Shown: positions 1,996-47,882 of the stretch, piece after piece
Numbering within the stretch: position 1 is the first letter of the stretch
How the letters are laid out: the number at the start of each line of letters is the position of its first letter
From: Streptomyces sp. SID12488
GTDB taxonomy: Bacteria; Actinomycetota; Actinomycetes; Streptomycetales; Streptomycetaceae
Assembly: GCF_010548275.1 (NCBI RefSeq)
Contig: NZ_JAAGLT010000026.1
Span: 62,001-126,000, forward strand
Reading direction: 5' to 3'
DNA length: 64,000 nucleotides
Translations under genes and position numbers: made by a program
Notes under the pieces: generated by a model
Told to the model about the DNA's origin: nothing
The model's input: only the letters and a program-made list of their open reading frames with translations
Database searches by the model: none

Positions 1996-3042
1996 ATGAC
2001 TGGAACTGTCCAGGCCCCTACGTTTTCCGTCATTTCAGGCAAGGCAGTGCAAGAGGCACTGGCAGGCCGTGAGCGGACCGTGGTGGACCTGATCGAAACT
2101 GCCTACCGGCTGCACGGCCGCGGTGAGACGACGAACCCGCCGTCGTACTTCCTGCGCTTTCCCGACCGGCCCTCCGATCGCATCATCGCGCTGCCCGCCT
2201 CGGTGGGCGGCGAGGTGAACACGGCCGGCATCAAGTGGATATCCAGTTTCCCCGCGAACGTCGCGAACGGACTGCCCCGCGCCTCGGCCGTCCTGATCCT
2301 CAACGATCGCGAGACCGGCTACCCCTACGCGTGCCTGGAAAGCTCGATCATCAGCGCAACCCGCACAGCGGCGTCCGCGGCACTGGCCGCCGTGCGCCTG
2401 TCCGAAAAACGTCAGGGCCGGGGCCGGGTCGGGTTCTTCGGAACGGGCCTGATCGCGCGGTACATCCACCGGTACCTCGCGGCGGCCGACTGGCACTTCG
2501 AGGACATCTCGGTCTTCGACTCGTCGGCGGAGCGAGCCCAGGCGTTCGGGGCGTACCTGGCGGATGCGCACGGCGGTCATCCGGTCCACCAGGCCACGAG
2601 CCCCGAGGAACTGGTCCGCGGTTCGGATCTGGTGGTCCTCGCGACGACCGCCGCCACACCGCACATCACCGAAGCATCGTGGTTCGACCACCATCCGTTG
2701 GTGCTCAACGTGTCCCTGCGGGACCTGTCGCCGGAGATCCTGCTGACGGCCGTGAACGTGCTCGACGACGTAGAGCACTGTTTGAAGGCCAATACTTCGC
2801 CGCACCTGGCCGAACAGCTCGCCGGTAGCAGGGACTTCGTCGACGGCACGCTCTACGACGTCCTGACCGGCCAACTGGCCGTCCCTGAGGAGCGCACCGT
2901 TGTCTTCTCGCCGTTCGGCCTGGGCGTCCTCGACCTGGTTCTCGGGGCCTTCGTCCACCAGGAGAGCCTGCGGGCGGGCAACGCGACCGTGATCGACTCC
3001 TTCTTCAGTGAACTGGATGCCGCTCACCGCGCCCGAGCGTGA
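1996..3042 (+). CDS. sbnB: SbnB-like N-(1-amino-1-carboxyethyl)-glutamate dehydrogenase
   Basis: A 348-residue member of the ornithine cyclodeaminase/mu-crystallin family. In staphyloferrin B biosynthesis SbnB oxidatively cleaves N-(1-amino-1-carboxyethyl)-glutamate with NAD+, giving L-2,3-diaminopropionate (Dap) and 2-oxoglutarate. The Rossmann dinucleotide-binding stretch VGFFGTGLIARY is near residues 143-154; the substrate-binding half lies before it (GIKWISSFPANVANG). A clear AGGAG precedes the ATG. Its partner, an SbnA-like synthase, sits 37 kb away on the other strand (39952-40986), so the cluster holds the complete two-enzyme Dap pathway. The gene is followed by a strong hairpin and looks monocistronic. 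Assignment to SbnB rather than a generic cyclodeaminase rests on overall similarity and on the partner gene. Confidence 0.85.
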   Translation: MTGTVQAPTFSVISGKAVQEALAGRERTVVDLIETAYRLHGRGETTNPPSYFLRFPDRPSDRIIALPASVGGEVNTAGIKWISSFPANVANGLPRASAVLILNDRETGYPYACLESSIISATRTAASAALAAVRLSEKRQGRGRVGFFGTGLIARYIHRYLAAADWHFEDISVFDSSAERAQAFGAYLADAHGGHPVHQATSPEELVRGSDLVVLATTAATPHITEASWFDHHPLVLNVSLRDLSPEILLTAVNVLDDVEHCLKANTSPHLAEQLAGSRDFVDGTLYDVLTGQLAVPEERTVVFSPFGLGVLDLVLGAFVHQESLRAGNATVIDSFFSELDAAHRARA

Positions 3043-3054
3043 CACCCCGTATCC

Positions 3055-3097
3055 GAACTCCTCGCGCACCGGCGCCATCCCGGTGCGCGAGGAGTTC
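3055..3097 (+). terminator. Strong hairpin after the sbnB-like gene
   Basis: A perfect 18-bp inverted repeat (arms 3055-3072 and 3080-3097, 7-nt loop) begins 12 bases after the stop codon. There is no T-tract, as is common for streptomycete terminators. It should separate the dehydrogenase from the thioesterase operon downstream. Confidence 0.8.
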
Positions 3098-3378
3098 CGC
3101 GGTGGTCTGTCGCGGCCGGGGGCGTGGTGGCCGTTCCATGTCATGGCACCAGGCGGCCCGTTCGCTGCTCGTTGGGGCCGCCGATTACCGCCTACCGTTC
3201 AGTTGTGTGTTCCGGTCGAATGGTTTCGCGCTCTTTCCGGTCCGCGGAATCACCGAGTGCGTGCCGGCGGCAGGCGCGGATGTGGCGGCGATCGGCTGGC
3301 CCACAGTGAAAGAACTCGTTCGTGAGCGGACATCGTCCGTGCCGGGAATGGGTTCGCGACCTTTGAGGAAAGTGTGTG
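3098..3378. other. Likely promoter region of the plus-strand NRPS operon
   Basis: About 280 bp without a gene between the hairpin and the thioesterase start. The next promoter is expected here, but I see no convincing -35/-10 pair. It ends in a GAGGAAA ribosome site at 3365-3371. Confidence 0.4.
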
Positions 3379-4137
3379 ATGGGGAATCCGTGGCTACCGC
3401 TCGGGACTCATCCGGACGCCGAAATCAGACTCTTGTGCCTGCCGCACGCGGGTGCCGGAGCCACTACGTACAGGAGTTGGGGAAAAGGTCTGCCCGATCA
3501 GGTCAGAGCGTGCCCTGTTCAGCCACCCGGGCGTGAAAGACGGCGCCGTGAGGAACCTTTCACGAATGTCGAGCAACTGGCCCGGGAATTAGCGAAGGAA
3601 ATCGTCGAATCGGTCCGCCCCCCGTACGCCCTGTTCGGTCACAGCACGGGTGCGCTGTGCGCATTCGAGACCCTGCGCGAGCTGCGTCGCATCGAAGCGA
3701 TCCTGCCGGTCCACTTGTTCGTATCCGGTCGGCGCGCGCCACAGGTTCATATGCCCAGGCATGATCCGGCAGCCATGAACCTGACCGAACTCGCCAACCT
3801 CCTGCGGCACTTGGGAGGCACCCCGGAGGAGGTACTCGCCGCACCGGAGCTGCTCGCTCTGCTGCAGCCCGTTCTGGCCGCGGATTTCTCGGTCAACGAG
3901 GACTACTCACACACGCAGCAACCCCCTTTCGACATCCCGGTCACCGCCTTCGCAGGGGCCGACGACCCAGGTGCGGACGCAACCCTGATGAAGCCCTGGG
4001 CATCGCACACGGCACGGAAGTTCACGCTGCACGCGTTGCCCGGCGGACACTTCGCGATCTTCGACCATGCCGCGGTGGTACACGCCCGCATCGCCGAAGC
4101 CCTTGCCCAGTACGCGCCGATCCCGGGAGGGAACTGA
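3379..4137 (+). CDS. Type II thioesterase (Ser nucleophile)
   Basis: A 252-residue alpha/beta hydrolase of the external (type II) NRPS/PKS thioesterase family, which clears wrongly loaded or stalled carrier proteins. Nucleophile elbow GHSTG with Ser89; FAGADDPGAD supplies the Asp and LPGGHFAIFD the His. The N-terminal LLCLPHAGAGATTYRSW is the usual oxyanion region. GTG at 3376 is possible, but GAGGAAA lies seven bases before the ATG at 3379, so the ATG is chosen. It opens the coupled plus-strand operon and ends four bases before the aminotransferase start. It keeps a standard Ser-Asp-His triad, unlike the second thioesterase at 15416. Confidence 0.9.
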   Translation: MGNPWLPLGTHPDAEIRLLCLPHAGAGATTYRSWGKGLPDQVRACPVQPPGRERRRREEPFTNVEQLARELAKEIVESVRPPYALFGHSTGALCAFETLRELRRIEAILPVHLFVSGRRAPQVHMPRHDPAAMNLTELANLLRHLGGTPEEVLAAPELLALLQPVLAADFSVNEDYSHTQQPPFDIPVTAFAGADDPGADATLMKPWASHTARKFTLHALPGGHFAIFDHAAVVHARIAEALAQYAPIPGGN

Positions 4138-4141
4138 CTCC

Positions 4142-5431
4142 ATGAAGCTGTCTCGGACCGGAACGAAAATGGCGAGCTTGTCGGGCCTGCGGGGCATTAT
4201 GGAGGACATCTCCACCGCGATGGAGGGCTCGGCAGGCACCCGGTGGCTCAATCTGGGAGTGGGAAACCCGGCGGCTATACCGGAAGTCGGCGACACCTGG
4301 CGGCGGCTGACCGAAGAAGCACTCACCGCTTCGTTCGAAGAGGCGAGCTGCCGCTACGGGCCCTCCCGTGGCCTGCCGCGTCTTGTCGACGCAATTGTCG
4401 ACTATTTCAACCGGCGGTACGGCTGGGACATCGGTCCCCGCAACGTCGTAGTGGGCCCCGGCAGCCAGATGCTCGCCTTCATCGCCGCGGCGCTGTTCAC
4501 CGGCCCCGGTGAACACCGTGACTCCACGTTGGTGCTCCCGATGATCCCCGACTACACCGGTTATCAGGGCCTCATGATGTCTCCCCGAGGGATCGCCGGC
4601 GTCGAGCCGCTGCTGCGGACCGATGATAACGGGCGCTCGTTCCGCTACCTCTTCGATCTGCCCGCGCTTCGGACACGGACCGATACCGGCCTGATGCTGC
4701 TGTCCACTCCGGGGAATCCAACGGGGCGCTGTGCCACGCCGGATGAGATCCGGGACCTGATCTCGGTCGCCGAGGCGCACGACGTACCGCTCATGGTCGA
4801 CAACGCCTACGGCGCACCCTTCCCCGGCATCGCGGCCTCGGTCACCGCTCCGGTCCGGCACGACCGTGTCCTCAACTGCTTCTCTCTATCCAAGGCCGGA
4901 ATGCCCGGAGAGCGTCTCGGTTTCGCGATCGGGGACGAGAAATACATCAGCCCGATCGTCTCGTTCCTGGCCAACGCCGTCCTGCACGCACCCCAGCTGG
5001 TCCAGTCCGTGCTGGCCGGTGCCCTGGAGTCCGGCGTCATAGATTCCATGGTCGAGTCGACGATCGGCCCGTTCTACGCGCAGCGCCGGAAGTTCGTGGA
5101 GTCGCTGCTGGCGGAGACCCTTCCCACGGACGTCTCCTGGCGTCTGCACGCCTCCGACGGGGGCATGTTCATCTGGATCTGGGTGGACGAGGACTGGTTC
5201 GACGACCTTCAGATGTACAGGCTGCTCAAGGAGCGAGGGGTTTTCGTCGTGCCGGGCCTGCATTTCTTCACGGATCCCGAGCACAGCACGCGCCTGGGGC
5301 GTCATTCGCGGCAATGCATCCGCGTCAGCATCACGCCCGACCCGGCGACCCTGTCTGCCGGCATCGAGGTGATCGCGCAGACGCTGCACGACCTGCACGC
5401 CGGGAAGACCCGCGTGCCCGTCTATCTGTGA
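4142..5431 (+). CDS. PLP-dependent aminotransferase, AvtA (valine-pyruvate) family
   Basis: A 429-residue fold-type I class I/II aminotransferase. It matches the AvtA pattern throughout: NLGVGNPAAIPEV near the N-terminus, YGPSRGLPRLVDAIVDYF, the VDNAYGAPFPGI segment, the PLP-lysine motif SLSKAGMPG (Lys251) and a C-terminal CIRVSITPD carrying the carboxylate-binding Arg. AvtA moves amino groups between alanine/pyruvate and branched-chain acids. In this cluster it probably makes or consumes a non-protein amino acid for the adjacent PCP and A proteins. An upstream frame reaches 4067, but the ATG at 4142, after GGAGGG, starts at the family N-terminus. A link to capreomycidine synthases (VioD/OrfR) was considered and not supported. 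Confidence 0.85.
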   Translation: MKLSRTGTKMASLSGLRGIMEDISTAMEGSAGTRWLNLGVGNPAAIPEVGDTWRRLTEEALTASFEEASCRYGPSRGLPRLVDAIVDYFNRRYGWDIGPRNVVVGPGSQMLAFIAAALFTGPGEHRDSTLVLPMIPDYTGYQGLMMSPRGIAGVEPLLRTDDNGRSFRYLFDLPALRTRTDTGLMLLSTPGNPTGRCATPDEIRDLISVAEAHDVPLMVDNAYGAPFPGIAASVTAPVRHDRVLNCFSLSKAGMPGERLGFAIGDEKYISPIVSFLANAVLHAPQLVQSVLAGALESGVIDSMVESTIGPFYAQRRKFVESLLAETLPTDVSWRLHASDGGMFIWIWVDEDWFDDLQMYRLLKERGVFVVPGLHFFTDPEHSTRLGRHSRQCIRVSITPDPATLSAGIEVIAQTLHDLHAGKTRVPVYL

Positions 5432-5449
5432 CAGCGAGGAGTGGACCGC

Positions 5450-5737
5450 ATGGCGGAACGGCGAGAGGACTTCGTTGACGCCCCCTACGAGGCCCCGCAG
5501 CAAGGGCTTGAACAGGAAGTGGCGGACATCGAGGCCGAGGTACTAGGAATCGACCGGATGGGCCGAGAGGACAGCTTCTACGACTTCGGCGGAACATCAC
5601 TGCAGGCCATCCGCATCTGTGCCCGGATCGAGCTCAGCCTCGGCCTGAAGGCGCTTCCCGTCTGGCTTTTCTCCAACGACATCCTGCACTCGTTCGTGGC
5701 GGAACTGCGCGCTCGGACGCAGAACGCGCATGTCTGA
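5450..5737 (+). CDS. Free-standing peptidyl carrier protein
   Basis: A 95-residue carrier protein. The phosphopantetheine site DFGGTSLQA (Ser50) lies in a typical PCP context with an acidic helix before it. GAGGAG ends eight bases upstream of the ATG at 5450; the GTG at 5441 abuts that ribosome site and is less likely. Its stop lies inside the next gene (8-base overlap), so it is translationally coupled to the stand-alone A domain, its probable loading enzyme. It could hold an amino acid for tailoring, or serve as a module delivered in trans. Confidence 0.9.
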   Translation: MAERREDFVDAPYEAPQQGLEQEVADIEAEVLGIDRMGREDSFYDFGGTSLQAIRICARIELSLGLKALPVWLFSNDILHSFVAELRARTQNAHV

Positions 5738-7292
5738 ACACAGCGGTGCCGGACCCCTGGTCCACGCCGCGTTCTCCGGGCACGCGGCCCGGCAACCGGA
5801 CGCTCCGGCACTCATCCACGACGGCACGGCCATCAGCTACCGAGTGCTTGACGCGGCCTCGGACGGCTACGCTGCGGAACTCTCCGCCCGTGGCGTCAGT
5901 CCCGGACAGATCGTTCCGATCGTGCTGCCCCGCTCCCCCCAACTCGTCGCCGTCCAGCTCGCCGTACTCAAGTGTGGGGCGGCGTACGTGAACATCGATG
6001 CCGACTGGCCGGACGACCGGCAGGCGGCGATCCATGCCCAGGCGGCACCGAAGGTCGTCGTCACCGGGTCCGCGGGTGTTTTCGCGGGGGACGCCGAGAC
6101 GTTCCGCGTGGAGCCCGAGGAACTGGCCGACGTAGCGGCGCGGGCGTTCGCCTTCACCCGCGCCGACGTCACCGCGGACGATCCAGCGACCGTGTTCTTC
6201 ACCTCCGGCACCACCGGCCGCCCGAAGGGCGTCGTCGTCCCGCACCGGGCCGTCACCCGGCTGTTCGGCCCGGGAGGTCTTCCCGGCTTCGGCCCCGGAC
6301 ACGTCACACCGCAGGCGGCCGCGATCGCCTGGGACATGTACGCGTTCGAACTGTGGGGCCAGCTGAGCAGTGGCGGATGCGCGGTTCTCGTCCCGCACGG
6401 GCACCTGCTGCCGGGCACCCTGCGGAAGCTGGTTCACAGCGCGGGCGCGGACACAGTGTGGCTGACGACCTCGCTGTTCAACCTTTTCGTCGACGAGGAC
6501 GTGGACTGCTTTACCGGCATACGACAGTTGATCGTCGGTGGCGAGAAGCTCTCCGCCGCTCACGTGCGGGCCTTCCTGGACCGCCACCCGTCGATTCCGT
6601 TGCGCAACGGCTACGGCCCCGCCGAGAACTGCATGCTCACCACGACCCGCCTCGTCCGTCATGAGGACTGCGACATCGTCGAGGGCATCCCGGTCGGTGT
6701 TCCGGTTCCCGGCACCTCGGTGCTGATCCTCTCGGAGGACGGTACCCGGCGCGTGGCGGGGGAGACGGACGAGGTGTGCATCGCGGGTACCGGCCTTGCG
6801 GTCCACTACTTGAGCCAGCCCGAGATGACCGCTGAGAAGTTCCCCGTCGTGGACGTCGACGGCACGCCGGTGCGCGTCTACCGCACCGGTGACCGCGGTT
6901 TCGTCGACGACCTGGGCGTACTGCACTTCCGGGGACGGCACGACCGCCAGGTCAAGATCAGCGGGCACCGCATCGAGCTGGCCGAGATCGAGATCACCGC
7001 CCGTGCTGTCGAGGGCGTCCGCGAGTGCCTCGTGACGCCGCTCAAAGCACCCGAGGGGCAGGTCACCGGTCTTGCACTGTTCTATGTGCCGCAGTCAGCG
7101 GGTCATGCTGCGGACACCGGCGGCGCCGGCGAAGAACGCGCGGTACGCGCGGCACTGGCCCGCACTCTGCCCTCCTATCTCGTGCCCGGTGTGATCCGCG
7201 GCCTGGACCGCTTCCCCGTGACCGCGAACGGAAAGGTCGACCAGGTGGAACTCCTTCGGCTGGCGACGCGGCCCCGGCGCGGTCGGACATGA
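5730..7292 (+). CDS. Stand-alone NRPS adenylation domain
   Basis: A 520-residue A protein with intact core motifs: FFTSGTTGRPKGVVV (A3), NGYGPAENCM (A5), YRTGDRG (A7), GRHDRQVKISGHRIEL (A8) and the catalytic lysine in TANGKVDQ (A10). It forms an aminoacyl-AMP and presumably loads the PCP encoded just upstream. Reading pocket positions by eye gives D-M-F-W-I-G-G-M-L-K. This resembles the valine-type pocket (D-A-F-W-x-G-G-T-F-K) but differs at two key positions, so a hydrophobic or modified residue is a guess only. The stop overlaps the next start (ATGA). Confidence 0.9.
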   Translation: MSEHSGAGPLVHAAFSGHAARQPDAPALIHDGTAISYRVLDAASDGYAAELSARGVSPGQIVPIVLPRSPQLVAVQLAVLKCGAAYVNIDADWPDDRQAAIHAQAAPKVVVTGSAGVFAGDAETFRVEPEELADVAARAFAFTRADVTADDPATVFFTSGTTGRPKGVVVPHRAVTRLFGPGGLPGFGPGHVTPQAAAIAWDMYAFELWGQLSSGGCAVLVPHGHLLPGTLRKLVHSAGADTVWLTTSLFNLFVDEDVDCFTGIRQLIVGGEKLSAAHVRAFLDRHPSIPLRNGYGPAENCMLTTTRLVRHEDCDIVEGIPVGVPVPGTSVLILSEDGTRRVAGETDEVCIAGTGLAVHYLSQPEMTAEKFPVVDVDGTPVRVYRTGDRGFVDDLGVLHFRGRHDRQVKISGHRIELAEIEITARAVEGVRECLVTPLKAPEGQVTGLALFYVPQSAGHAADTGGAGEERAVRAALARTLPSYLVPGVIRGLDRFPVTANGKVDQVELLRLATRPRRGRT

Positions 7293-8653
7293 CGGAAGGA
7301 GGGCAGAAGACGCCGGGCGGTACGACGTTCCACCCGATGATGGTCGAGCAGGAATCGATGTGGCTGGACGACCACCTGCGGGACGGCCCGTCCCGCTACC
7401 TCGAGTCCTGGGTGTACCACCTGCGCGGCCCCCTCGACCGGGATGCCGTGCGCTGGGCGCTTGAGCGGATCGTGGCGCGGCACGAGGCACTGCGCAGCCG
7501 ATTCCTCCTGTGCGACGACCGTCTGCTGCAGGAGGTGCTTCCCGAGGGGAGACGGCTGGAACTGGAGACCGTCGCCTGCTCCCCGGAGTGCGTTGAGGAC
7601 ACGCTGAAGGAGCTGGTGCGGCGTCCCCTCGATCTGGCCGAGAACCCTCTGCGGGCCACCTTGGTCGACGTGTCGGCGGAGACCGCGGTCCTTGTCCTCC
7701 AGCTGCACCACCTGGTGATAGACGACTCGGCGTTGCACACCATCGAGCGGGAGTTCGAGGAGCATTACCGGGCGCACGTCGAGCGGCGCCCCGCGACGGT
7801 CGCTCCGGTGCCGCTGCAACCGGGGGCCTATGCGGCGGCCCAGCGCTCGGCCCCCCGCGACCCCGAGGCGCGGGCTTACTGGCGCGAGGCGCTGCGCGAC
7901 CTGCCCGACGACGTCGCCGGCACACTCGCTGCGGACGGCGCCGGTGCGCCGGACGACCTGAGCGGTGTTCGATCGGACCGCGGGGACCGGATCGCCTTTG
8001 ACGTCGATGCCGTGATGACGAAACGGGTGCGGACCGTATGCCGTCGGGTGCGGGCCACGCCGTTCGCCGTCTTCGCCTCCGTCGTGGCCGTGCTGCTGCA
8101 CTCCGTGCGCGGTGCCCGCGAGGTGATCGTGGGCATACCGGTCTCGCGCCGGGACACCGCCGACTGCGACCAGATGGTCGCGCCGCTGGGCGAGTTGCTG
8201 CCGCTGCGTCTGGCGGTTTCCCCGGACGTATCGTTCGCCGGCCTCCTGGAGCACGTGCGCGACCGGATCCACGAAGCGCTGACGCACAAGGACATCTCGT
8301 ACGCGGAAGTGCTCGCCATGGCGCGGCAGCGCGGTCGGCCAGGTGACCGGTACCTGTGCCGCACGGTGCTCGTGGTGGACGATGCGCAGCCGTCCCGGAT
8401 CGAGCTGCCCGGTGTTGAGGCCCGGCGGGTCCTCGTGCATTCCGGCGTCTCGAAGTATGACCTGACCTTCACTTTCGTAGCACAGGGCCGAGGGTATCTC
8501 GGCTTCCTGGAGTATCCGTTGGACCTGTTCGACGCCGAAGCGGCCGGGCGTGTCCTGGAGGGCTTCGCGGCACTGCTGGAACGTGCGTGCGACAACCCGG
8601 ACCGGGCGGTGTCGCACCTGACGGACGCTGTCGTACGAGGGATGCCGCAGTGA
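7289..8653 (+). CDS. Stand-alone NRPS condensation domain
   Basis: A 454-residue protein covering one C domain and nothing else. The active-site motif is HHLVIDD: both His are present and the usual final Gly is Asp. The floor loop (GVSKYDLTFTF) and the VIVGIPVSRRD latch region are recognisable. The ATG overlaps the A-domain stop (ATGA), and its own stop overlaps the next GTG start. A free C domain implies condensation between carrier proteins on different polypeptides, or use as an amide- or ester-forming release enzyme. Which substrates it joins cannot be read from sequence. Confidence 0.9.
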   Translation: MTEGGQKTPGGTTFHPMMVEQESMWLDDHLRDGPSRYLESWVYHLRGPLDRDAVRWALERIVARHEALRSRFLLCDDRLLQEVLPEGRRLELETVACSPECVEDTLKELVRRPLDLAENPLRATLVDVSAETAVLVLQLHHLVIDDSALHTIEREFEEHYRAHVERRPATVAPVPLQPGAYAAAQRSAPRDPEARAYWREALRDLPDDVAGTLAADGAGAPDDLSGVRSDRGDRIAFDVDAVMTKRVRTVCRRVRATPFAVFASVVAVLLHSVRGAREVIVGIPVSRRDTADCDQMVAPLGELLPLRLAVSPDVSFAGLLEHVRDRIHEALTHKDISYAEVLAMARQRGRPGDRYLCRTVLVVDDAQPSRIELPGVEARRVLVHSGVSKYDLTFTFVAQGRGYLGFLEYPLDLFDAEAAGRVLEGFAALLERACDNPDRAVSHLTDAVVRGMPQ

Positions 8654-9606
8654 CGGGTGACCCGCCCGTCGTCGTGGCATGCGACGAGTCCGGCGCCGAA
8701 GGAGAACGGCTGATCGGTGGGAACACGGTGGTGTTCGCGCACGCAGGCGTCACACTGAGCGTCGAAGAGGCGTCCGCGTGCATCCGCCGGCTGCGGGAAC
8801 TCATCCGCTCGCCGGCCACCGAGTACAAGGCGAACCATCTGCTGCGCTCGAAGAACCGGTCCTCGCTGGAGTGGTTTCTCGGGCCGGGCGGTCCCGTGCA
8901 CGGCCGTGCCCATGTATGCCTGGTCGAAAAGGCGTTCTTCCTTCTCGTCCGGTTCACCGAAACGCTCGTACGGGCTGCCGAGCGGTCCGCGTCCGGTACG
9001 GTGACGCCCGGTCCGTCCGCCGGGCAACTGGCCGAAGCCCTGTATCGCGAGGGCCCCGGCATGTTCGGGCGGAAGGGGTGGAGCTGCTTTTTGCGGCTGC
9101 TGAACAACCAGATGCGTTCCCCTTCGCTGCGCGAGCCCCTGCCGTCACCCGACGGCTTCTTCCACCTGGCCGAGATGCTGGGTGCACGGGGTAGGGCCGG
9201 CGCCGCCCACGACGTGTGGAACCTGGTGCGGCGTCACCAACCCTGCCCCCAGGCCCTGATCCCGCCGGACGCCAGGCGGCAGCCGGCTGTCTTCCCTGCG
9301 CTCGACCCGCTCGGCCCCGCGATCGAGTGGGCGTTCGCCCGCTGGAGCGACGGTGGCGCGCTGACTGTCGTCCACGACCAGCAGACGACGCTGACCAGCG
9401 CCAGGATCGCGCGGATCGAGCAGCTGTGTGGCGGCACACTGCGGCTGGTGCCCTCCGCATCGGATCCGCGGGTTCAGGTCGCCGACTTCCTCGCCGGAGT
9501 TGCCCGCAAGCTGGCCACTGACGAGTTGGCCCGCGAGGCGGACACCGAACTCGCAGAGCTGCTGCAGCCCTACATCGACCCTCGCTCGGTCTGGCGGACG
9601 ACATGA
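8650..9606 (+). CDS. DUF3800-like protein inside the NRPS operon
   Basis: A 318-residue protein of uncertain function. The N-terminal VVACDESG and the C-terminal VQVADFLAGVARKL fit the DUF3800 pattern (DES near the start, ADxxAG near the end), a family predicted to have an RNase H-like metal-binding fold and often found near mobile or defence genes. It has no signal peptide or membrane segment. Both ends are translationally coupled: GTGA overlap with the C protein and ATGA overlap with the NRPS. It is therefore an integral operon member, although DUF3800 has no known role in peptide assembly. It could be a repurposed enzyme or a passenger. Confidence 0.65.
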   Translation: MTGDPPVVVACDESGAEGERLIGGNTVVFAHAGVTLSVEEASACIRRLRELIRSPATEYKANHLLRSKNRSSLEWFLGPGGPVHGRAHVCLVEKAFFLLVRFTETLVRAAERSASGTVTPGPSAGQLAEALYREGPGMFGRKGWSCFLRLLNNQMRSPSLREPLPSPDGFFHLAEMLGARGRAGAAHDVWNLVRRHQPCPQALIPPDARRQPAVFPALDPLGPAIEWAFARWSDGGALTVVHDQQTTLTSARIARIEQLCGGTLRLVPSASDPRVQVADFLAGVARKLATDELAREADTELAELLQPYIDPRSVWRTT

Positions 9607-15419: not shown

Positions 15420-16189
15420 GCGACTTGCCGTCCGCGCAGGCGGACACCGCCACGACCACGCCCGCCGCGAAACCGCGCTGTCTGCTGCGTAGGCCGTCCC
15501 CCGACGCCGAGGCCCGGCTGTTCTGTTTCCCCTACTCGGGAGTCGGCGCCTCCATGTTCCACCGCTGGCCGCGCAGCATCGACGGGATCGAGGTCTGCCT
15601 CATCCAGCTGCCCGCCCGGGAGAACCGGATCCGTGACCCGCACCATGGCACGTACGAGCAACTGGCCAAAGACCTGGTCGAGTTCCTGCCGCCGTACCTG
15701 GACAAGCCCTATGGCATCTTCGGCCACTGCGGCGGAGCCATCGCGGCGGTGGAGCTGGCCAACCAGCTTGAGGACGCCGGGCTGCCGATGCCACGCAGGA
15801 TCTTCCCCTCCGCGCAGGTGGCCGCGCACGACGGTCCCTACGGACGGTTCCTCGGCCTGAACCGGGAGGAGCTGGGGGAGGAACTGAGCAAGCTGATCGT
15901 CCACCTGGGCGGCACGCCCACGCCCTCGCTGGTCTCCATGGGCGCCGAACTGCTGGACCGTGATCTCGACGCGAACCGCGTCTACCGAGCCGCGGGCCCC
16001 CGCAAGCTCTCCTGCGGTGTCACGGCCATCGGCTGGGCGCAGGACGTGGAGATCCCTGTGGAGTTGATGGGGGGCTGGGCGGAGACATCCTCCGACTTCC
16101 GGTCGGTGGTGCTCGACGGCGGGCACTACGACTTCCTCAAGGCCCCGCAGCAGCTGCTGGCCACGTTCCGGGAGCACATGTCGGCCTGA
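15416..16189 (+). CDS. Type II thioesterase with Cys nucleophile
   Basis: A 257-residue alpha/beta hydrolase with the same architecture as the thioesterase at 3379 but with GHCGG at the nucleophile elbow, so Cys105 replaces Ser. The His is kept (LDGGHYDFLK). The segment that normally carries the Asp reads GGWAETSSDF, so the acid residue is uncertain. The RLFCFPYSGVGAS oxyanion region is intact. It overlaps the NRPS stop (ATGA) and ends the plus-strand operon before a hairpin. Cys-based thioesterases are known in some NRPSs that release strained rings (obafluorin, sulfazecin). Whether this protein edits, or releases the product, is open; no other TE in the cluster is fused to a synthetase. Confidence 0.88.
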   Translation: MSDLPSAQADTATTTPAAKPRCLLRRPSPDAEARLFCFPYSGVGASMFHRWPRSIDGIEVCLIQLPARENRIRDPHHGTYEQLAKDLVEFLPPYLDKPYGIFGHCGGAIAAVELANQLEDAGLPMPRRIFPSAQVAAHDGPYGRFLGLNREELGEELSKLIVHLGGTPTPSLVSMGAELLDRDLDANRVYRAAGPRKLSCGVTAIGWAQDVEIPVELMGGWAETSSDFRSVVLDGGHYDFLKAPQQLLATFREHMSA

Positions 16190-19646: not shown

Positions 19647-19690
19647 GGGGTTTCCCTTCCGGCCACCGGTGCGGTGGTGGCCTGTGTAGC

Positions 19691-40986: not shown

Positions 40987-41831
40987 GACGTGCACACACG
41001 GAAGCCGAGATCGAAGCAGCTGTACTCGCGCATCGAATAGCAGCGCGTCGTGGGGCTGACCCAGCGGGGCGTGCAGTCGTTGAAGAACGACCCGCCCCTG
41101 ATCACTCCCAGCTCGAAACTGCCTGCCTTGGTACTGATGACCCTCGGCGCGCTGCTCAAGTAGGGGAACTTGTGCCAGGGCGAGGATGTCCATTCCCAGA
41201 CGTTGCCGGCGGTGTCGGCCAGCCCGTTCGGGCCGGACGCCTGCGGGTAGGCGCCGATGGGCGTGGTGTCGCCGACCAGCATGCTGTGATTGCAGCTGTC
41301 CGGAGTGGGCGGGGTGTCGCCCCACGGGTAGATCCGGCCGTCGGTGCCACGGGCGGCCTTCTCCCACTCCGCCTCCGTCGGCAGCCGGGTACCTGACCAT
41401 GCGCAATAGGCGAGGGCGTCGGTGTGGCTGACGTGCGTGACGGGGTGATCCGCCTTGTTCGCCACGTCCGATCCGGCGCCGCGCGGGGCTTCCCACGACG
41501 CTCCCTCGATTCGCACCCAGAGTTTTTCCTGTCCCGACGTGGTGATGTCGTCGCCGCCGATCCAGACCCAGCTGTGGCCGGCCTGCTGCGCCGTCGTGAC
41601 ATACGACGTCCCTTCGATGAAGCGCGCGAACTCGCCCACCGACACCGGGGTGCGCGCCATGCGGAAGGCGTCCACCTCGACCACATGGGCGGGTGACCAC
41701 GGTGCGTGCTTGCCGTTCTCGAGTTCGTCCATGCCGATGGTGAAGGGGCCGGCTTCGATCGTGGCCCAGTGGGCGGGGTCGGACGGTTTCCGGCCTGTCT
41801 CGCCGGAGGGCTTCAGACTGGTCTCGGTCAC
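40983..41831 (-). CDS. FGE/SUMF1-like protein lacking the copper cysteines
   Basis: A 282-residue formylglycine-generating-enzyme-family protein. Typical segments are present: GPFTIGMDE, HPVTHVSHTDALAYCAW, RLPTEAEWEKAARG, GNVWEWTSS, IRGGSFFND and DLGFRVC. In true FGEs the RGGS segment is followed by two copper-binding cysteines (RGGSYLC...C pattern); here those positions are Asn and Arg, although other cysteines are near. It is therefore probably not a sulfatase activator. Family members without these residues do other chemistry, such as PvdO in pyoverdine maturation. No signal peptide. AAAGGA precedes the GTG start. A tailoring oxidation is inferred only from context. Confidence 0.85.
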   Translation of the reverse strand: MTETSLKPSGETGRKPSDPAHWATIEAGPFTIGMDELENGKHAPWSPAHVVEVDAFRMARTPVSVGEFARFIEGTSYVTTAQQAGHSWVWIGGDDITTSGQEKLWVRIEGASWEAPRGAGSDVANKADHPVTHVSHTDALAYCAWSGTRLPTEAEWEKAARGTDGRIYPWGDTPPTPDSCNHSMLVGDTTPIGAYPQASGPNGLADTAGNVWEWTSSPWHKFPYLSSAPRVISTKAGSFELGVIRGGSFFNDCTPRWVSPTTRCYSMREYSCFDLGFRVCTS

Positions 41832-41841: not shown

Positions 41842-43500
41842 TTATCCCTTGAATCCGCTGAGAGCTGGCTTGTTTGCTGTTGTTCCGTTCGGCGGGCAGG
41901 TGTCGAGGTAGTGGTTCCAGACCGTCGACAGCGGCGCGTAACCGCCCTGCAGGAGGCGTTCGTGGAAGTCCCTGAGTGTGGCCCGGTCCACGTCGTCGCC
42001 CAGCGTCCGCCGCCATGCGCGGATGCGCAGCTTGCCCAGCGCGTACATGGCGGTGGACAGGTGGGCGGTGGTGACCAGAACCTCGCGGACCGCCCGGTCA
42101 GGCGACCACAGGCATAGTGCCGTGGCCTGGCGCACCGCTTCCGCGAAGCTCCAGCGCCTCATGTGGACCGAGAGGTAGATCAGCAGTCGTACGGCGGCTT
42201 CGAGCGCCGACTTCAGCTGGGCGATCCGGACCCGGGGCCGACCGTCGGCGAACCCGAACTCGATCGCCAGCTCCTCCGCGTAATGGGACCAGCCCTCGGG
42301 GAAGCCGGCCGACCACCGGACGCAGTTGCGCATGACACCCGGCCGCTGGAGACCGGCCTCGGTGTGCACGTAATGACCGGCGAACGTCTCGTGCAACGCG
42401 ACCACAGCGAGCATCGGGTCGTTCAGGTACTGGCGCCGCAGACTCCCGGGATCGTCGCCCCGAAGGTCGGGGACGTGCAGGAAGTGAGACTGCGGAACGC
42501 TCTCGAGCGGGCCCGCGACGTCGAAGACGACCTCCACACTGCTCGCGCCCGCCGGCGCGAGGACCACCTCCAGCGGCGTCGTCACCGACACCGGGATGAT
42601 GTCCTCGCGGCGCCAGAACTCCTGGACCTCCTCGATGGCGGAGCGCACCGAGTCCACCACCGGGCGGTCACTGACCTGGTCGGCGAGCAGTCCGTAGGCC
42701 TCCGCGCGGCTGTCCGCGCCCACCTGGGCGGCCACCTTGTCGAGGGCCTTGACCAGCGAGGCGACTTCCTCCCGGGCCTCCTCCAGGAGATCGGTCACCG
42801 GCTGTTCCACGCCCTCCGTCGCCCGCAGATAGGCGCCCAGGAGCTCAGGGCCGAGGACGCCCCCGACCGGCGTCACCTCGGCAATGGCCCGCGTGTACTC
42901 CTCGCAGGCCACGGCGGCCGGTTCCGCGGCGGCGGCGACCCGGTTCAGGTCGGTCTCCGGGTGGTCGGCAGTGAGCCGCGCGGTGAGGCCGCGCAGCCCT
43001 GCCGTGCGATGGGCGGCCTGCTCCAGACAGCGCAGCCTGGCTCCGGCGGCCATCGTGGTGCCGAGTCCCTCGCGGGCTTGGTGCAGGAACTCCGGTACGG
43101 CCTCCAGATGCCTGCCGACGGCGTCCATTCGCTCCGCCACAGGGGCGTACGGTCCGCGCAGATAGACGGACACGTCGACCTCGGCGAACTGTTCCGGAGG
43201 CGCCGGGTGGTCCCATCCGAGGTGTTCCACCTCGAACCGCTCGGCCTCCAGGAACTTCAGGGCCGCGTCCAGGTCGGCCCGCAGGCCTGGATCCGCCGTC
43301 CCGGGCAGGGACTTGAGACCGCCGAGGACAGCGGTCCGCAGGCGGGTCAGACCCGCGGGGGACCGCGGACCCGGCTGCGGCAGACGGGCGTCGTACTCGT
43401 GCAGTCCCGCCCGGCGCGCGCAATGCGGGTACCGGCCGAAGATGTACGTCACCACCTCGGTGACCGAGGCTTCCGCCTCGCCGACTCCCTTGGCGGACAT
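41842..43500 (-). CDS. DUF885-family putative metallohydrolase
   Basis: A 552-residue protein of the DUF885 family. The signature ALHETFAGHYVHTEAG resembles the family HExxPGHxxQ metal motif, with Ala for Pro and His for Gln, followed by FPEGWSHYAEELAIEFG, where a third ligand is expected. No signal peptide or membrane segment is seen, so it should act in the cytoplasm. It starts two bases after the MbtH-like gene stop and is followed by the FGE-like gene 10 bp on, so it belongs to the operon. Family members are poorly characterised, predicted peptidases. It might trim, cyclise or hydrolyse a peptide intermediate. Confidence 0.8.
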   Translation of the reverse strand: MSAKGVGEAEASVTEVVTYIFGRYPHCARRAGLHEYDARLPQPGPRSPAGLTRLRTAVLGGLKSLPGTADPGLRADLDAALKFLEAERFEVEHLGWDHPAPPEQFAEVDVSVYLRGPYAPVAERMDAVGRHLEAVPEFLHQAREGLGTTMAAGARLRCLEQAAHRTAGLRGLTARLTADHPETDLNRVAAAAEPAAVACEEYTRAIAEVTPVGGVLGPELLGAYLRATEGVEQPVTDLLEEAREEVASLVKALDKVAAQVGADSRAEAYGLLADQVSDRPVVDSVRSAIEEVQEFWRREDIIPVSVTTPLEVVLAPAGASSVEVVFDVAGPLESVPQSHFLHVPDLRGDDPGSLRRQYLNDPMLAVVALHETFAGHYVHTEAGLQRPGVMRNCVRWSAGFPEGWSHYAEELAIEFGFADGRPRVRIAQLKSALEAAVRLLIYLSVHMRRWSFAEAVRQATALCLWSPDRAVREVLVTTAHLSTAMYALGKLRIRAWRRTLGDDVDRATLRDFHERLLQGGYAPLSTVWNHYLDTCPPNGTTANKPALSGFKG

Positions 43501-43502: not shown

Positions 43503-43961
43503 TTACGGCGCATCCGTTGTGGCGTGGGCCTCCACGTCGGCGGGCTCGGACTTCTTCGCGGCTGCCAGGATCTCGCCGTCTCCGTCGACAATCTCGCCGT
43601 CGAGCTGGATGAGCATCTCCCGGAGCTCATCGGGAGACATCGCCATCATTTCGTCGGCGTCGACAAGCTGTGAAAGGATCATGCGTCCTCCTGCGGCGGG
43701 TGCACTGGGCACCGGCGGTTGATGAATTACTGTTGTCCGGCTTGTGGGAACGGCTCGTTCGCCGACGGCGATGGCCTCGCGGACACTCCTCGGCGTCATG
43801 TCCGTCCACGTCTTCTCGATGTAGGACAGACAATGTTCGCGAGACCTGGCCGGACCGTCGGCCCTCCAGCCCTTGGGCAGCTCCCGCTGGGCCGGCCAGA
43901 TCGAGTACTGGTCCTCGTCGTTCACGACCACGAAATAGTCGACTGTCTCGTCGTCGAACAT
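43503..43961 (-). CDS. MbtH-like protein with C-terminal extension
   Basis: A 152-residue protein. Residues 1-62 are a complete MbtH domain (NDEDQYSIWP, LPKGW, CLSYIEKTWTDM, PRSVR), the small chaperone that binds and activates many A domains. MbtH proteins usually end near residue 70; this one continues about 80 residues, ending in an acidic, Met/Asp-rich tail. Inside it, the ATG at 43682 is preceded by a perfect AGGAGG, so a separate 59-residue protein (43503-43682) may also, or instead, be made. AGGGAGA lies seven bases before the ATG at 43961, and a strong promoter lies upstream. It is the first gene of the operon carrying the P450, FAAL and NRPS genes. Confidence 0.9.
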   Translation of the reverse strand: MFDDETVDYFVVVNDEDQYSIWPAQRELPKGWRADGPARSREHCLSYIEKTWTDMTPRSVREAIAVGERAVPTSRTTVIHQPPVPSAPAAGGRMILSQLVDADEMMAMSPDELREMLIQLDGEIVDGDGEILAAAKKSEPADVEAHATTDAP

Positions 43962-44015
43962 TTCAAATCTCCCTTCGGTCGACTTGCCTGAATCGGTGGA
44001 TCGAATTCAATGAAT

Positions 44016-44163: not shown

Positions 44164-45240
44164 TCACCCGCGCAGGACGTCGTCCCCGCGCGAGTAGTCG
44201 GTGTCGACGATGCGGCCGTCGAACGGCCTGCGGTCCTCGCTGCGCGACAGGTCCCGGGTCAGGGAGGTGCGCAGCAGCCAGCGGTCCGCGCCGTCCCAGT
44301 GGGCGCGGTAGGGCCGTCGGCCGTGGAAGGCCCGGTGATTGTCCACGAACAACAGGTCTCCCGGTTGGAGCAGCACCGGGACGGCCACCTTGTCCACGCA
44401 CTGCTTCAGCGCTCCGAGCGCTGCCTGGGCCGCGTCGTCCATACCGGTGGTCTCGGCGAAGTCCGCACGGACTCGTGGCCGTTGCGGGCTGCCGCTGAGC
44501 ACCTGGATCGGACCGATCTGTATGGGGTCCGTCGTGCCGATCCCATCGAGGAAGGAGGCGTCGACCGCCGTCTTGAACCTCTGTTCGCGCAGAATTCCGA
44601 TCGTGTCCGCGTCGAGCAGGGGGAGGACTGACTCGATGGGGCTGAGCGTTGTCGCGGCAACTCGGTCGTGATCGGCACGCAGGCACAGCAGTGCGACAAA
44701 GTCGGGGCGATCCTCGGCGAAGGCGCTCTCCACATGGCAGGAGAGTTCCTCGGCACTGGAGACGGACTGCTGCGTTTGCTCGAGACCGCGTACCGGAACG
44801 ACGTCCTGGACGACGGTGCCGCCCAGCTCGGGCTTGAACCCGTACTGATCGCCGACGACTGCCGAGACAATTCCGAAGATGCCCGCGGCGGTCAGCGTGG
44901 TCCCGGTGAGCGCTGCCGGGTCGGCCGGCGTGCTCGGGATGTCGAAGACCGGGCAGCCCCGGACCAGGAGACCCCCGAGGGGGCTGCCGTACCGCCGGAA
45001 CATCCGTAGCCCGTCCAGCAGTTCGGCGGACAGGGACGAGGCGGCCCGCACCGCTCGCGCCGTGAATTCTTCGGGATCCGCCACGATGTCGGCGGTGACA
45101 CAATGCTCCGCCGCGTCACGTATGCGGGCGAGTTCGGCGGATGAAAGGGAGAAGGTCAGTTCTGTGACTCCCTTCGAAACATCCGAGGGATTCGATGCCG
45201 TACGCCCGGAGACATCCGGCGCCGCCAGTACATCGCTCAT
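44164..45240 (-). CDS. Fe(II)/2-oxoglutarate oxygenase, VioC/AsnO/OrfP type
   Basis: A 358-residue clavaminate-synthase-like oxygenase, the family that beta-hydroxylates free amino acids (VioC on Arg, AsnO on Asn). The iron ligands are His169 and Glu171 (SCHVES) and His306 (FHGRRP). Arg324 (WLLRTSLTRD), 18 residues later, would bind 2-oxoglutarate, matching VioC spacing. If my memory of VioC numbering is right, its guanidine-binding Asp268 corresponds to Arg258 here while Asp270 is kept (Asp260), so arginine is not an obvious substrate. The start is ATG 45240 after AAGGAAG; the frame open to 45300 is longer by chance. Probable role: hydroxylated building block. Confidence 0.85.
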   Translation of the reverse strand: MSDVLAAPDVSGRTASNPSDVSKGVTELTFSLSSAELARIRDAAEHCVTADIVADPEEFTARAVRAASSLSAELLDGLRMFRRYGSPLGGLLVRGCPVFDIPSTPADPAALTGTTLTAAGIFGIVSAVVGDQYGFKPELGGTVVQDVVPVRGLEQTQQSVSSAEELSCHVESAFAEDRPDFVALLCLRADHDRVAATTLSPIESVLPLLDADTIGILREQRFKTAVDASFLDGIGTTDPIQIGPIQVLSGSPQRPRVRADFAETTGMDDAAQAALGALKQCVDKVAVPVLLQPGDLLFVDNHRAFHGRRPYRAHWDGADRWLLRTSLTRDLSRSEDRRPFDGRIVDTDYSRGDDVLRG

Positions 45241-45499: not shown

Positions 45500-45511
45500 C
45501 GGGAGTGCGGG

Positions 45512-46876
45512 TCAGTCGACGGCTGCGGGCTCGCCACCGACGACTGCGGCGTCCGCCGGGCCCGATCGCGGCACCCCGCCGCGATCCAAGCTGATGAGAC
45601 GGCCGTCAGGCCCTCGCCGGACCGCGCGGATCGCGGGGACGAGGACGGTGAGGGCACAGGGAACGGCGATCAGAAGCGCGGCGCCCACCAGTGTTGGCCC
45701 CGTGCCCGACCGGACGGCCACAGGGCCAACCAGAGCCATGCCCAGCGGTGCCACGACCATGGAGAGCATCCAGTCGTAGGAGTCCACCCGCGAGCGCACC
45801 TCGTCCGGGATCAGTTCCTGCATGGTGGCGGTCCAGATGACGCCGAGGAAGGTCAGGCCCATGCCGCTCAGTACGGTCGAGCAGACGATGACCCAGGTCC
45901 CCAGGGGCTTTGCGAGCGCGAGCAGAGGCAACGCCGTGAGCAGCAGCGCCAGGTTGCCGGCGATCAGTGGCCGCTTGGGCTTGATGCGCAGAGAGACGAG
46001 CCCGCCGATGACGGCACCCGCCGCCGAACCGGACGCGATCAGTCCCCACGAGGACGCGCCACCGAGCTGATCGGCCGCGACGACCGGTCCGAGGACGAAG
46101 AAGGCCGCGACCGCGAAGTTCCACAGTGAATGGGCGATGAGGTTGATCCAGTACCAGGGACGCATCACTACCTCGCGCCAACCAGTGGACAGGTCGCCCC
46201 AGAACGAGGGTGAGGTCGACACCAGGCGCGGCGCAAGCCTGAGCAGGGAGAGCGAGACGGCGCTGATCACGAAGGTGAGCGCGTCCACCGCGAAGACCAC
46301 ACCCGGCCCCAGTCCCACGATGAGTACGCCGGCCAGCGCCGGTCCGACGATGGAGAAGGCACTGCCGGAGAAACCCATGAGGGCGTTGCTCTGCTGGAGC
46401 TCGTCCGTGCTGACGGTTTCAGGCAGCAGGCCGGTCGATGCGGGACCGAAGAAGGCCTGCGCGATACCGAAGAGCACGGCCCCGCATGCCAGATGCCAGA
46501 TTTCGGCCTGGCCGGTCAACAGCAGTACGGCCAACGTGATCTGAACCCCTGCCTGCACCAGATCACAGGCCAGCATGATGGCCTGGCGGGGCAGCCGATC
46601 CGCCCACACGCCCCCGGCAAGGATGAACACCACCTTGGCGACAGTCTGGGCCGCCATGATGTAACCGATGTCCGCGGCCGATCCGCCGACCTCCAGCACC
46701 GCGAACACGAAGGCGACCGCCGCCACGGTGTTTCCGACGGAGGAAATGCTCTGCCCCGTCCAGAGAAGGCGGAAGGACCGCCCGGACAACGGAGACAAGG
46801 CCTCCATCATTCGTTCTCGATTTGCTTTTCCGGGTTCCCGCTGCTTCTCGTTTTCCGCCGGCCGGTCAGTAGTCAC
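45512..46876 (-). CDS. MFS exporter (DHA3/EntS-like)
   Basis: A protein of up to 454 residues with about twelve hydrophobic segments. The first transmembrane region (RLLWTGQSISSVGNTVAAV) and the loop-2 motif GGVWADRLPRQ are typical of the MFS_3/EntS-like exporter group, which includes siderophore and macrolide efflux pumps. GTG 46876 overlaps the KASIII-like gene stop by 11 bases and has GGTGGA upstream; ATG 46810 would remove a 22-residue polar leader and is an alternative. In this context export of the peptide product, with self-resistance, is likely. Confidence 0.85.
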   Translation of the reverse strand: MTTDRPAENEKQREPGKANRERMMEALSPLSGRSFRLLWTGQSISSVGNTVAAVAFVFAVLEVGGSAADIGYIMAAQTVAKVVFILAGGVWADRLPRQAIMLACDLVQAGVQITLAVLLLTGQAEIWHLACGAVLFGIAQAFFGPASTGLLPETVSTDELQQSNALMGFSGSAFSIVGPALAGVLIVGLGPGVVFAVDALTFVISAVSLSLLRLAPRLVSTSPSFWGDLSTGWREVVMRPWYWINLIAHSLWNFAVAAFFVLGPVVAADQLGGASSWGLIASGSAAGAVIGGLVSLRIKPKRPLIAGNLALLLTALPLLALAKPLGTWVIVCSTVLSGMGLTFLGVIWTATMQELIPDEVRSRVDSYDWMLSMVVAPLGMALVGPVAVRSGTGPTLVGAALLIAVPCALTVLVPAIRAVRRGPDGRLISLDRGGVPRSGPADAAVVGGEPAAVD

Positions 46877-47882
46877 ATTCCACCGGCCACTCCGGCTCGG
46901 CGGCGATCTCCAGGATCGCGCAACCGTAGCTGAATCCGACACCATCCCCAAACAAAGCCACTCGGTCCCCTATCGAAACCGATCCCGATTCAAGTAGGAA
47001 TGTGAGACCAGCAACCTGGTCGCCGGTCCCGAAGTGACCGACAGTACGCCCCCATTCCCAGGTCGTCGCGGAGTCCTGGATCCCCATTTCCTCGCGGAAC
47101 GCGTGGCCGGCCAGGAAGTTCCCGGCGTGTGCGAAGACCCACCGAGTGATGTCCACAGGTTTCACATCTGCGTCCACGAGTGCCTGGCGGGCACACTCGC
47201 GCTGGAGTTCGGCCATGGCCTTCAGCAGCGGAAGGATCCGGCTGCGCTGCTCATCCAGGAATTCTTTGCGGGTTGCATATTGCCTGGGTCGGGATATCGC
47301 GGTGTCCGGGACGCTGAAGGAACCGTCCCCCATGACGGCGGTGGAAAGCAGCTTGGCCACGCCTGCGCGGCGGGTGAGGATCAGACCCGTGCCGCCGTCA
47401 CCCGGGATCGTTCCGGGGTCGGAGCGGTATCGGTCGCCCTCTTCCGCCGGGTGCTTTTCGCCGGTGGTCAGAAGAATCGCGGACCCGGTCGGCGCAACGC
47501 CGAGGTATGCCGACCCCATCTCCAGCGCGGCCAGTCCGCCGTTGCAGGCCTGGTTCACCTCGATCGCGGCAGTGCCGGACCGCAGCAACTCGCCCTGTAT
47601 GTAGGACGCCGGCTGAATGTGCGGGGGCCCCTGGGGGGTGGAGTACGAGTGAATCAGCAGCTTGACGTCGTCCGGGTGCACCCGTGACCGTGACAGCGCC
47701 TGTCGGCCCGCTGTCACGGCCAGGTCCATCGCCAGGGCGTCGTCCGCCACGGACACTGCCTGATACCCGTGGGCCACCTGGTACTCGGGCTCGTATCGTC
47801 CGGCGGCAACCGCCTCGTCCGTGTCTTCCCTGCGTCCCAGGGCAAAGGCACAGGAGTCGACGTAGACATCGGTCCACTGCAT
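46866..47882 (-). CDS. KASIII-like acyltransferase (CerJ/ChlB3 type)
   Basis: A 338-residue thiolase-fold protein of the FabH-like group. The active Cys is in VNQACNGG (Cys113) and the His in FAHAGN (about 255). The FabH Asn segment (GNTSAAS) reads GHFGTGD, so Asn is missing. This GH-x-G-x-GD pattern is, as far as I recall, that of KASIII-like acyl transferases such as CerJ and ChlB3, which move acyl groups to oxygen or carrier proteins instead of condensing. AAGGAGG lies eight bases before the ATG. It heads the exporter unit and overlaps the MFS gene. It could prime the FAAL starter or acylate the product. Confidence 0.82.
   Translation of the reverse strand: MQWTDVYVDSCAFALGRREDTDEAVAAGRYEPEYQVAHGYQAVSVADDALAMDLAVTAGRQALSRSRVHPDDVKLLIHSYSTPQGPPHIQPASYIQGELLRSGTAAIEVNQACNGGLAALEMGSAYLGVAPTGSAILLTTGEKHPAEEGDRYRSDPGTIPGDGGTGLILTRRAGVAKLLSTAVMGDGSFSVPDTAISRPRQYATRKEFLDEQRSRILPLLKAMAELQRECARQALVDADVKPVDITRWVFAHAGNFLAGHAFREEMGIQDSATTWEWGRTVGHFGTGDQVAGLTFLLESGSVSIGDRVALFGDGVGFSYGCAILEIAAEPEWPVECDY

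Follow-up and report, generated by a model that had tools for sequence, protein, structure and literature searches.

A FAAL-primed nonribosomal peptide synthetase cluster in Streptomyces sp. SID12488 represents a recurrent actinobacterial family with a proposed cassette swap between two conserved genes

A 64,000-nucleotide stretch from the 9.6-Mb genome of Streptomyces sp. SID12488 (contig NZ_JAAGLT010000026.1, positions 62,001 to 126,000; hereafter the window) holds at positions 1996 to 47882 a nonribosomal peptide synthetase (NRPS) cluster that forms one unit and whose open reading frames we scanned with Pfam and NCBIfam. The cluster is real, conserved and open throughout, and no gene range contained an internal stop on translation. 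An earlier note on this DNA had described it as a diaminopropionate (Dap) lipopeptide-type cluster, and every item of its parts list, namely SbnA, SbnB, FAAL, adenylation (A) domains, P450s, oxygenase, FGE-like, DUF885, KASIII-like and acylase proteins, lies within these coordinates; left unnamed were an MFS exporter, an AvtA-like aminotransferase, free A and condensation (C) proteins and a DUF3800-like protein. What is new here is the family of clusters to which this one belongs, together with the proposed cassette swap within it.

The assembly line proper is encoded on the minus strand and reads, according to Pfam, FAAL-ACP-C-A1-PCP-C (31978-38700), A2-PCP-C (28769-31972, the start estimated from a ribosome-binding-like site), a lone peptidyl carrier protein (PCP) that lacks its own A domain (PCPb, 28395-28772, PF00550, motif GGHS) and TubC_N-C-A3-PCP-C-PCP-C (hereafter TubC-NRPS, 22003-28398), in which no A domain accompanies the second PCP either. 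A FAAL-primed start is present, as the FAAL is followed by an acyl carrier protein (ACP) and then by a C domain that retains the catalytic histidine, and the protein scores 458.4 bits against NF004509, below the cut-off of 775. The catalytic histidine is kept in all six C domains of this line; the motifs are HHIVCDL and DHIACDG in the FAAL protein and HHxxxDG in all three C domains of the TubC-NRPS. A pattern requiring the serine picked out seven PCPs but not the ACP or the A2 protein's PCP. The pockets of A1 (DLWEVTADD) and A2 (DIWEITADD), read from the sequence, are acidic as previously proposed in nine residues each, the tenth (Lys) having been assumed rather than read, and the A3 code (DVFSIAMVH) resembles Thr codes. 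Pfam detected no thioesterase domain in any NRPS protein, the last one included, unlike the terminal thioesterase domain typical of daptomycin/laspartomycin-type lipopeptide antibiotics; two free thioesterase-fold proteins are encoded instead.

Further NRPS parts lie on the plus strand: a free-standing PCP (PCPa, 5441-5737, PF00550, GGTS), a free-standing A domain with a Val-like code, DMFWIGGML (5730-7292, PF00501; a 62% identical Micromonospora homologue reads DMFWLGGML), a free-standing C domain with HHLVIDD (7289-8653, PF00668) and a C-A-PCP-C-A protein (9603-15419). Homologues of the free-standing trio occur in the same order in S. albiflavescens (PCP 50%, A 52%, C 39%), the A code there being DALWLGGVF. 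The C-A-PCP-C-A protein had been called a Ser module, which is borne out by its PCP and by the Ser code DVWHFSLVD; however, both C domains lack the second histidine (HPIVADT and GHPGFD where HHxxxDG is expected), the second A domain is degenerate, missing the usual core motifs, and no PCP follows it. These degenerate domains, and transposase remnants just past 48.8 kb, could be taken as signs of a decaying or partly dead cluster. We regard this as highly unlikely, given that the gene ranges are free of internal stops, that the catalytic motifs examined in the core proteins are present (the FGE cysteine pair excepted) and that the same multidomain protein, degenerate domains notwithstanding, is kept over its length in Saccharopolyspora (51% over 1947 amino acids).

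Nine further clusters from actinobacteria carry a colinear core, for the most part 40-67% identical to that of the window: those of Streptomyces silvae, S. griseus BIG105, S. atratus, S. albiflavescens and a further Streptomyces genome, G523 (the ninth relative), and those of Umezawaea, Saccharopolyspora shandongensis, Hamadaea and Micromonospora, which makes five genera with Streptomyces. All ten clusters share the FAAL module, the A2 protein, PCPb, the TubC-NRPS, an acylase, SbnA, an FGE-fold protein, a DUF885 protein, an MbtH-like protein and the thioesterase-fold protein TE2, while the cytochrome P450b is found in nine, the KASIII-like gene in eight and a close homologue of the MFS exporter in seven. 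Weak points in these counts are the SbnA of Saccharopolyspora, which is only 37% identical (it passes TIGR03945), the MbtH matches, which are short in three clusters, and Hamadaea, which has no A3. The nearest relative is that of S. shandongensis (FAAL module 59%, acylase 64%, C-A-PCP-C-A protein 51%). A search with the KASIII-like gene led to three of the Streptomyces clusters, and an alignment of four acylase sequences, scanned against GTDB genomes (118 stretches matched a pattern, 10 of which encoded a relative, at 9 distinct loci), gave eight loci at 54-64%, three of them known already, and one Polyangiaceae locus at 27%, whose 13.7 kb held no other cluster genes. In a sample of 392 Streptomyces genomes, five carried an acylase at E<=1e-60 (the window's own, those of three members of the family and a homologue at 37%), and among 396 genomes drawn across the phylum it was found only in the window's own, indicating that the family is rare but spread. 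When plasmids were searched for distant matches to part of the FAAL-module gene, 80 records came up, none of which covered 80% of the query. The earlier statement that no described pathway has this combination of parts holds within the papers searched, although the cluster is a member of a recurrent family; our full-text searches found no description of the combination, but with their poor coverage of subscription journals a match may have been published. About ten core proteins stay together in five genera, and with no described product found for them they make a good target for a new compound class.

The relatives also carry genes of their own. The clusters of S. silvae, BIG105, S. albiflavescens, G523 and Umezawaea have tail genes absent in the window, encoding a Lys/Orn-type N-monooxygenase, a pyridoxal-phosphate (PLP) enzyme of the Cys/Met-metabolism type and a 311-amino-acid protein. 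A second DUF885 gene is seen in S. silvae, BIG105, S. albiflavescens, G523 and S. atratus, and in Saccharopolyspora a zinc carboxypeptidase gene (Peptidase_M14; L115:9059-12097) lies between the FGE and P450b genes.

The supply of Dap is supported. The SbnB-type dehydrogenase (1996-3042, plus strand) and the SbnA-type PLP enzyme (39952 to about 41001, minus strand), a pair on opposite strands as the earlier note had it, both score above the curated NCBI equivalog cut-offs (414.3 versus 326.9 bits for TIGR03944 and 362.7 versus 349.95 bits for TIGR03945), and Dap is the only diamino acid with its own genes in the window cluster. In this strain, these two enzymes most likely provide the Dap for both residue 1 and residue 2. 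A true SbnB is common only to the window and Saccharopolyspora (64%). The SbnB-like proteins of seven relatives are divergent (29-34%), that of S. silvae reaching 189 bits, below the cut-off of 326.9, and the 80 kb of Micromonospora contain no SbnB-like protein.

Three observations count against Dap at both sites. In two viomycin-like clusters that also encode SbnA and SbnB, the codes include DVYHFSLVD and DVRHMSMVE and none resembles those of the window, so that Dap as the substrate rests on the SbnA/SbnB pair and not on the codes. Furthermore, all nine relatives, with nearly the same pockets, carry a homologue of a diaminobutyrate (Dab) transaminase, which renders the previously proposed Dap-Dap start doubtful. 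Finally, the window genome has an EctB among its ectoine genes: its best EctB homologue sits between a GNAT gene and the ectoine synthase gene, which identifies it as an ectoine enzyme and makes Dab available in trans. One acidic pocket in the relatives may thus take Dab, and it is a tentative, though serious, possibility that in the window, too, one acidic-pocket A domain takes Dab from the ectoine pathway, in which case the peptide would start with Dab-Dap or Dap-Dab. The near-uniform codes (A1 DIWELTADD in 8 of 10 clusters, A2 DIWE[IV]TADD in all 10) agree with this, and similar codes possibly specify Dab in syringomycin. On the other hand, the window cluster has no Dab transaminase, and the window's A1 has Val at a site where A2 codes read Val or Ile. 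The latter is a weak link, since the A1 of Hamadaea reads Ile there and this cluster carries a transaminase of the related DAT family (TIGR00709, 461.8 bits, cut-off 401.6); moreover, the FAAL-module tree possibly groups the window and Hamadaea as sisters (90/97), the trees resolving window, Hamadaea, Micromonospora and Saccharopolyspora only in part. A rule by which Leu at A1 position 299 would mean Dab and Val or Ile would mean Dap was dropped for the same reason.

The Dab transaminase is part of a cassette. In S. silvae, whose transaminase and that of Hamadaea were the two scanned against families, it scores 594.4 bits against TIGR02407 (cut-off 552.2) and adjoins a Cupin_8 oxygenase with an HFD motif; the other eight relatives have homologues of both (39-96% identity for the transaminase, 42-94% for Cupin_8), and the window has neither at E<=1e-5. 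In six relatives, the five Streptomyces and Umezawaea, the pair is located between the MbtH and MFS genes, in Umezawaea together with a thioesterase gene, while in Saccharopolyspora, Micromonospora and Hamadaea it is found elsewhere in or near the cluster. In the window, the slot between the genes for the MbtH-like protein (43503-43961, PF03621) and the MFS exporter (45512-46951, true start possibly about 46876, PF07690; 55-60% homologues in six relatives) is instead filled by a VioC/AsnO-type Fe/2-oxoglutarate oxygenase (44164-45240, start set by a ribosome-binding-like site, PF02668), all on the minus strand. This oxygenase matches AsnO (2og5) at 157.5 bits, has HVE and DNHRAFHGR motifs, reaches 162.2 bits against TIGR03946 (cut-off 418.6) and has no homologue in the stretches of the nine relatives at E<=1e-8. 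A Cupin_8 homologue was not found in the window's own genome at E<=1e-10, an empty search result that by itself shows little. We infer that the window line gave up a unit derived from Dab and gained a different oxygenated one; such an oxygenase and monomer swap at one syntenic slot would let the ways in which NRPS lines alter their building blocks be compared in nature.

Carriers without their own A domain, as claimed before, suggest loading in trans, and three neighbouring genes provide candidates for it: an A-PCP didomain with the Val code DAFWLGGTF (17829-19700, start estimated, about 19646; minus strand; PF00501, PF00550), the cytochrome P450a (16579-17799, start estimated; minus strand; heme loop FGPHRCIGG), whose gene adjoins that of the A-PCP, and TE2 (15416-16189, plus strand, PF00975). 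Among PDB matches of P450a, 4l0e (223.9 bits) and 3mgx (199.4 bits), the structures of P450sky and OxyD, rank third and fourth, which suggests that P450a may be a hydroxylase of amino acids bound to a carrier. In TE2, the nucleophile is a cysteine (GHCxG) in all nine clusters aligned, and a Cys nucleophile of that kind marks aminoacyl shuttles such as SyrC and CmaE. Taken together, trans-loading by the A-PCP, a carrier-type P450 and a thioesterase-fold shuttle with a Cys nucleophile appears likely. A precedent is Qui18/Qui15 of echinomycin biosynthesis, where a P450 encoded beside an A-PCP acts in vitro only on the loaded amino acid (PMC3578932). Two points speak against this assignment: P450a ranks better to two CYP125-type chains (255-259 bits) than to 4l0e and 3mgx, and for the free thioesterases of polyoxypeptin biosynthesis hydrolysis rather than shuttling was proposed (PMC3943440).

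The fate of the lipid hinges on the N-terminal-nucleophile (Ntn)-type acylase of the penicillin amidase family (19691-22006, minus strand, PF01804 4.4e-110), in which GSNCW is invariant among four aligned sequences. Its gene directly follows the TubC-NRPS gene in 10/10 clusters, and FAAL and acylase are kept together in all ten, i.e., an Ntn acylase beside an acyl-activating start domain, the arrangement of in-cluster deacylation. Deacylation has been described for PvdQ, GdnD and the in-cluster Tem25 of telomycin (PMC10587159). By analogy with this telomycin and pyoverdine logic, the conserved pair makes the lipid probably temporary and the term lipopeptide probably wrong for the end product; the FAAL start behind that term stands, and only the lipid in the end product is doubtful. 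As a separate observation, the FAAL plus acylase pair recurs outside the family: in a different Streptomyces NRPS cluster (G592), a penicillin-acylase-family gene (35%) adjoins NRPS genes, and a FAAL-type protein (33%) is encoded not far away. Some findings caution against the deacylation reading. In the PDB, the acylase matches D-succinylase and cephalosporin/penicillin acylases at E<=1e-10 rather than PvdQ, and with its two N-terminal hydrophobic segments (hydropathy peaks at about 22-40 and 43-61) it might act on either side of the membrane. The cluster could instead make a true lipopeptide, with the acylase inactivating it for resistance or recycling, or acting on another amide. The FAAL-ACP-C start and the MFS exporter fit this, and GdnD and Tem25 have been discussed as possible detoxification or self-resistance enzymes (PMC10587159); conversely, the strict position of the acylase gene after the TubC-NRPS gene, when close homologues of the MFS and KASIII-like genes are not found in all clusters, speaks against it, although this is suggestive only. 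We consider the true lipopeptide rather unlikely.

Among the tailoring proteins, the FGE-fold protein (40983-41831, minus strand, PF03781 191.7 bits) stands out. In an alignment to FGE structures with eight homologues, the first catalytic position is Asn in 9/9 and the second is Arg or Met in 9/9, never Cys; lacking both catalytic cysteines of FGE, it should not be a formylglycine maker and represents a conserved enzyme without an assigned reaction. P450b (38755-39939, minus strand, PF00067, heme loop GYGIHFCLG) has a 49-54% homologue in eight of the nine relatives, the best Hamadaea match being 31% over 287 amino acids, and the DUF885 putative metallopeptidase (41842-43500, minus strand, PF05960 1.7e-45) keeps HExxxGH in all nine clusters aligned. 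The KASIII-like protein (46866-47882, minus strand, PF08541) belongs to the DpsC/CerJ/ChlB3 group (structure matches 4xs7, 3s3l and 7eqi). Its Cys is kept in 7/7 aligned sequences, the His position is His in the window only and the Asn position seems to be Arg in 7/7; these changes make acyl transfer likelier than condensation. The joint presence of the FGE-fold protein, Ntn acylase and FAAL in 10/10 clusters, along with the Dab transaminase of the relatives, might also indicate a siderophore matured like pyoverdine, with an acyl start, an acylase, an FGE-fold oxidase and a diamino acid. We judge this improbable, as no receptor or ABC uptake gene was found among the open reading frames scanned in 1996-47882 and none of the codes read looks aromatic.

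Gene content, domain order, codes, catalytic residues and conservation can be read directly, and from them we infer the substrates, the order of the trans-loaded residues, tailoring, lipid removal and product as follows. FAAL would activate a fatty acid, which the ACP would carry and the first C domain would join to residue 1 (A1); the line would then add residue 2 (A2), residues 1 and 2 both being diamino acids. Val would be loaded on the A-PCP, hydroxylated there by P450a and moved by TE2 in the manner of SyrC/CmaE-type shuttles, with residue 3 (on PCPb) and residue 5 (on C-PCP-C), which have no A domain of their own, charged in trans, residue 4 given by the Thr-like code, and further units fed by the free A/PCPa pair and the Ser A-PCP. 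The peptide would be tailored by P450b, the FGE-fold protein, the VioC-like oxygenase and the KASIII-like protein, before the acylase finally removes the fatty acid, the lipid thus serving as an assembly handle absent from the end product. To this proposal as a whole, from FAAL start and diamino residues through trans-loading and tailoring to lipid removal, we assign moderate confidence. A bolder extension, which we offer as speculation with little probability, is that P450b and the Cys-less FGE-fold enzyme cyclize and oxidize the adjacent diamino acids on the lipid-anchored peptide to a new heterocycle, e.g., a cyclic amidine, before the acylase frees the peptide, and that the family diversifies by swapping the Dab transaminase and Cupin_8 cassette against a VioC-type one at one slot, with A1 following, as a Gram-positive counterpart of pyoverdine-style maturation.

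The remaining genes of the cluster, all on the plus strand, encode a type II thioesterase with a Ser nucleophile, GHSTG (3376-4137, PF00975; Micromonospora homologue 56% identical), an AvtA-like PLP aminotransferase of the valine-pyruvate type (4142-5431, PF00155; NF006967 394.9 bits, just below the cut-off of 402), which has a 62% homologue in Micromonospora and none in the other eight relatives at E<=1e-20, and a putative DUF3800-like protein (8650-9606; no Pfam or NCBIfam match), with a 47% homologue in the Saccharopolyspora cluster. The gene for the latter matched at E<=1e-10 in 45 of 295 Streptomyces genomes, its own included, and had no match in the viral contigs searched. We rejected it as a cluster marker because no other cluster gene was found at E<=1e-20 in 15 of its neighbourhoods (14 of the 15 best other-genome matches plus a second copy in its own genome).

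On the left, the cluster ends with the SbnB gene at 1996; on its 5' side are a mycothiol-transferase/DinB-type gene and a trypsin-like gene, followed beyond the window by a LuxR-type regulator and further genes with no visible link to the cluster. On the right, it ends with the KASIII-like gene at 47882, followed by transposase remnants (DDE_5, rve_3), which at 48809-51290 flank a pterin-4a-carbinolamine-dehydratase/glyoxalase fusion, and then by glycoside hydrolases, a run at 52139-62610 of arabinofuranosidase, GH10 and alpha-galactosidase with ricin-type lectin domains attached. Upstream of the window (L161:3497-10230), a large TPR-CHAT protein is encoded about 0.9 kb after a reverse transcriptase gene, possibly as a defence locus.

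Several known products were considered and set aside. Alanosine, malonomycin, antrimycin, enamidonin and zwittermicin were dropped. GE23077 contains Dap, Ser, Thr and Val. It was nonetheless abandoned as a candidate product, because the relevant passage of a review names no gene cluster for it (PMC10951976). Among related systems, the viomycin-like clusters (G223 and G312) likewise combine SbnA, SbnB and NRPS genes with a VioC-family oxygenase, theirs scoring over its cut-off, but within the 40 kb covered, homologues of the acylase, FGE and DUF885 are missing at E<=1e-10 and FAAL matches do not exceed 29% identity; the window, for its part, has neither a VioC equivalog nor tuberactinomycin-like A codes. 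The rotihibin cluster of Streptomyces scabies likewise combines FAAL, MbtH, an L-asparagine oxygenase and a diamino acid (Dab) with a Streptomyces NRPS (PMC8552735); it differs in having separate FAAL and ACP genes and one pentamodular plus one single-module NRPS, and the portion of its gene table examined lists no acylase, FGE, SbnA or SbnB (PMC8552735). For the chitinopeptins, too, sbnA/sbnB neighbour an NRPS by which Dap is incorporated, but these are Bacteroidetes cyclic lipodepsipeptides of 14-15 residues that keep their lipid (PMC9248904). GCF_201888, a Saccharopolyspora gene cluster family with sbnA and sbnB orthologues that the BGCFlow paper links to staphyloferrin B (PMC11162802), could be the S. 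shandongensis cluster found here.

Pyoverdine maturation has in common with the window an acyl start, an Ntn acylase, an FGE-fold protein and a diamino acid, with no orthology to Pvd proteins implied. The parallel runs through PvdQ, PvdL, PvdO, which is FGE-like, and PvdH, a Dab transaminase; the Tyr/Dab chromophore modules and uptake genes of pyoverdine have no counterpart in the cluster, where no aromatic-type code and no uptake gene occur among the open reading frames scanned. Telomycin, the peptide of which differs from that of the window, is again an NRPS product built on a lipid start with an acylase, Tem25, encoded in the cluster (PMC10587159).

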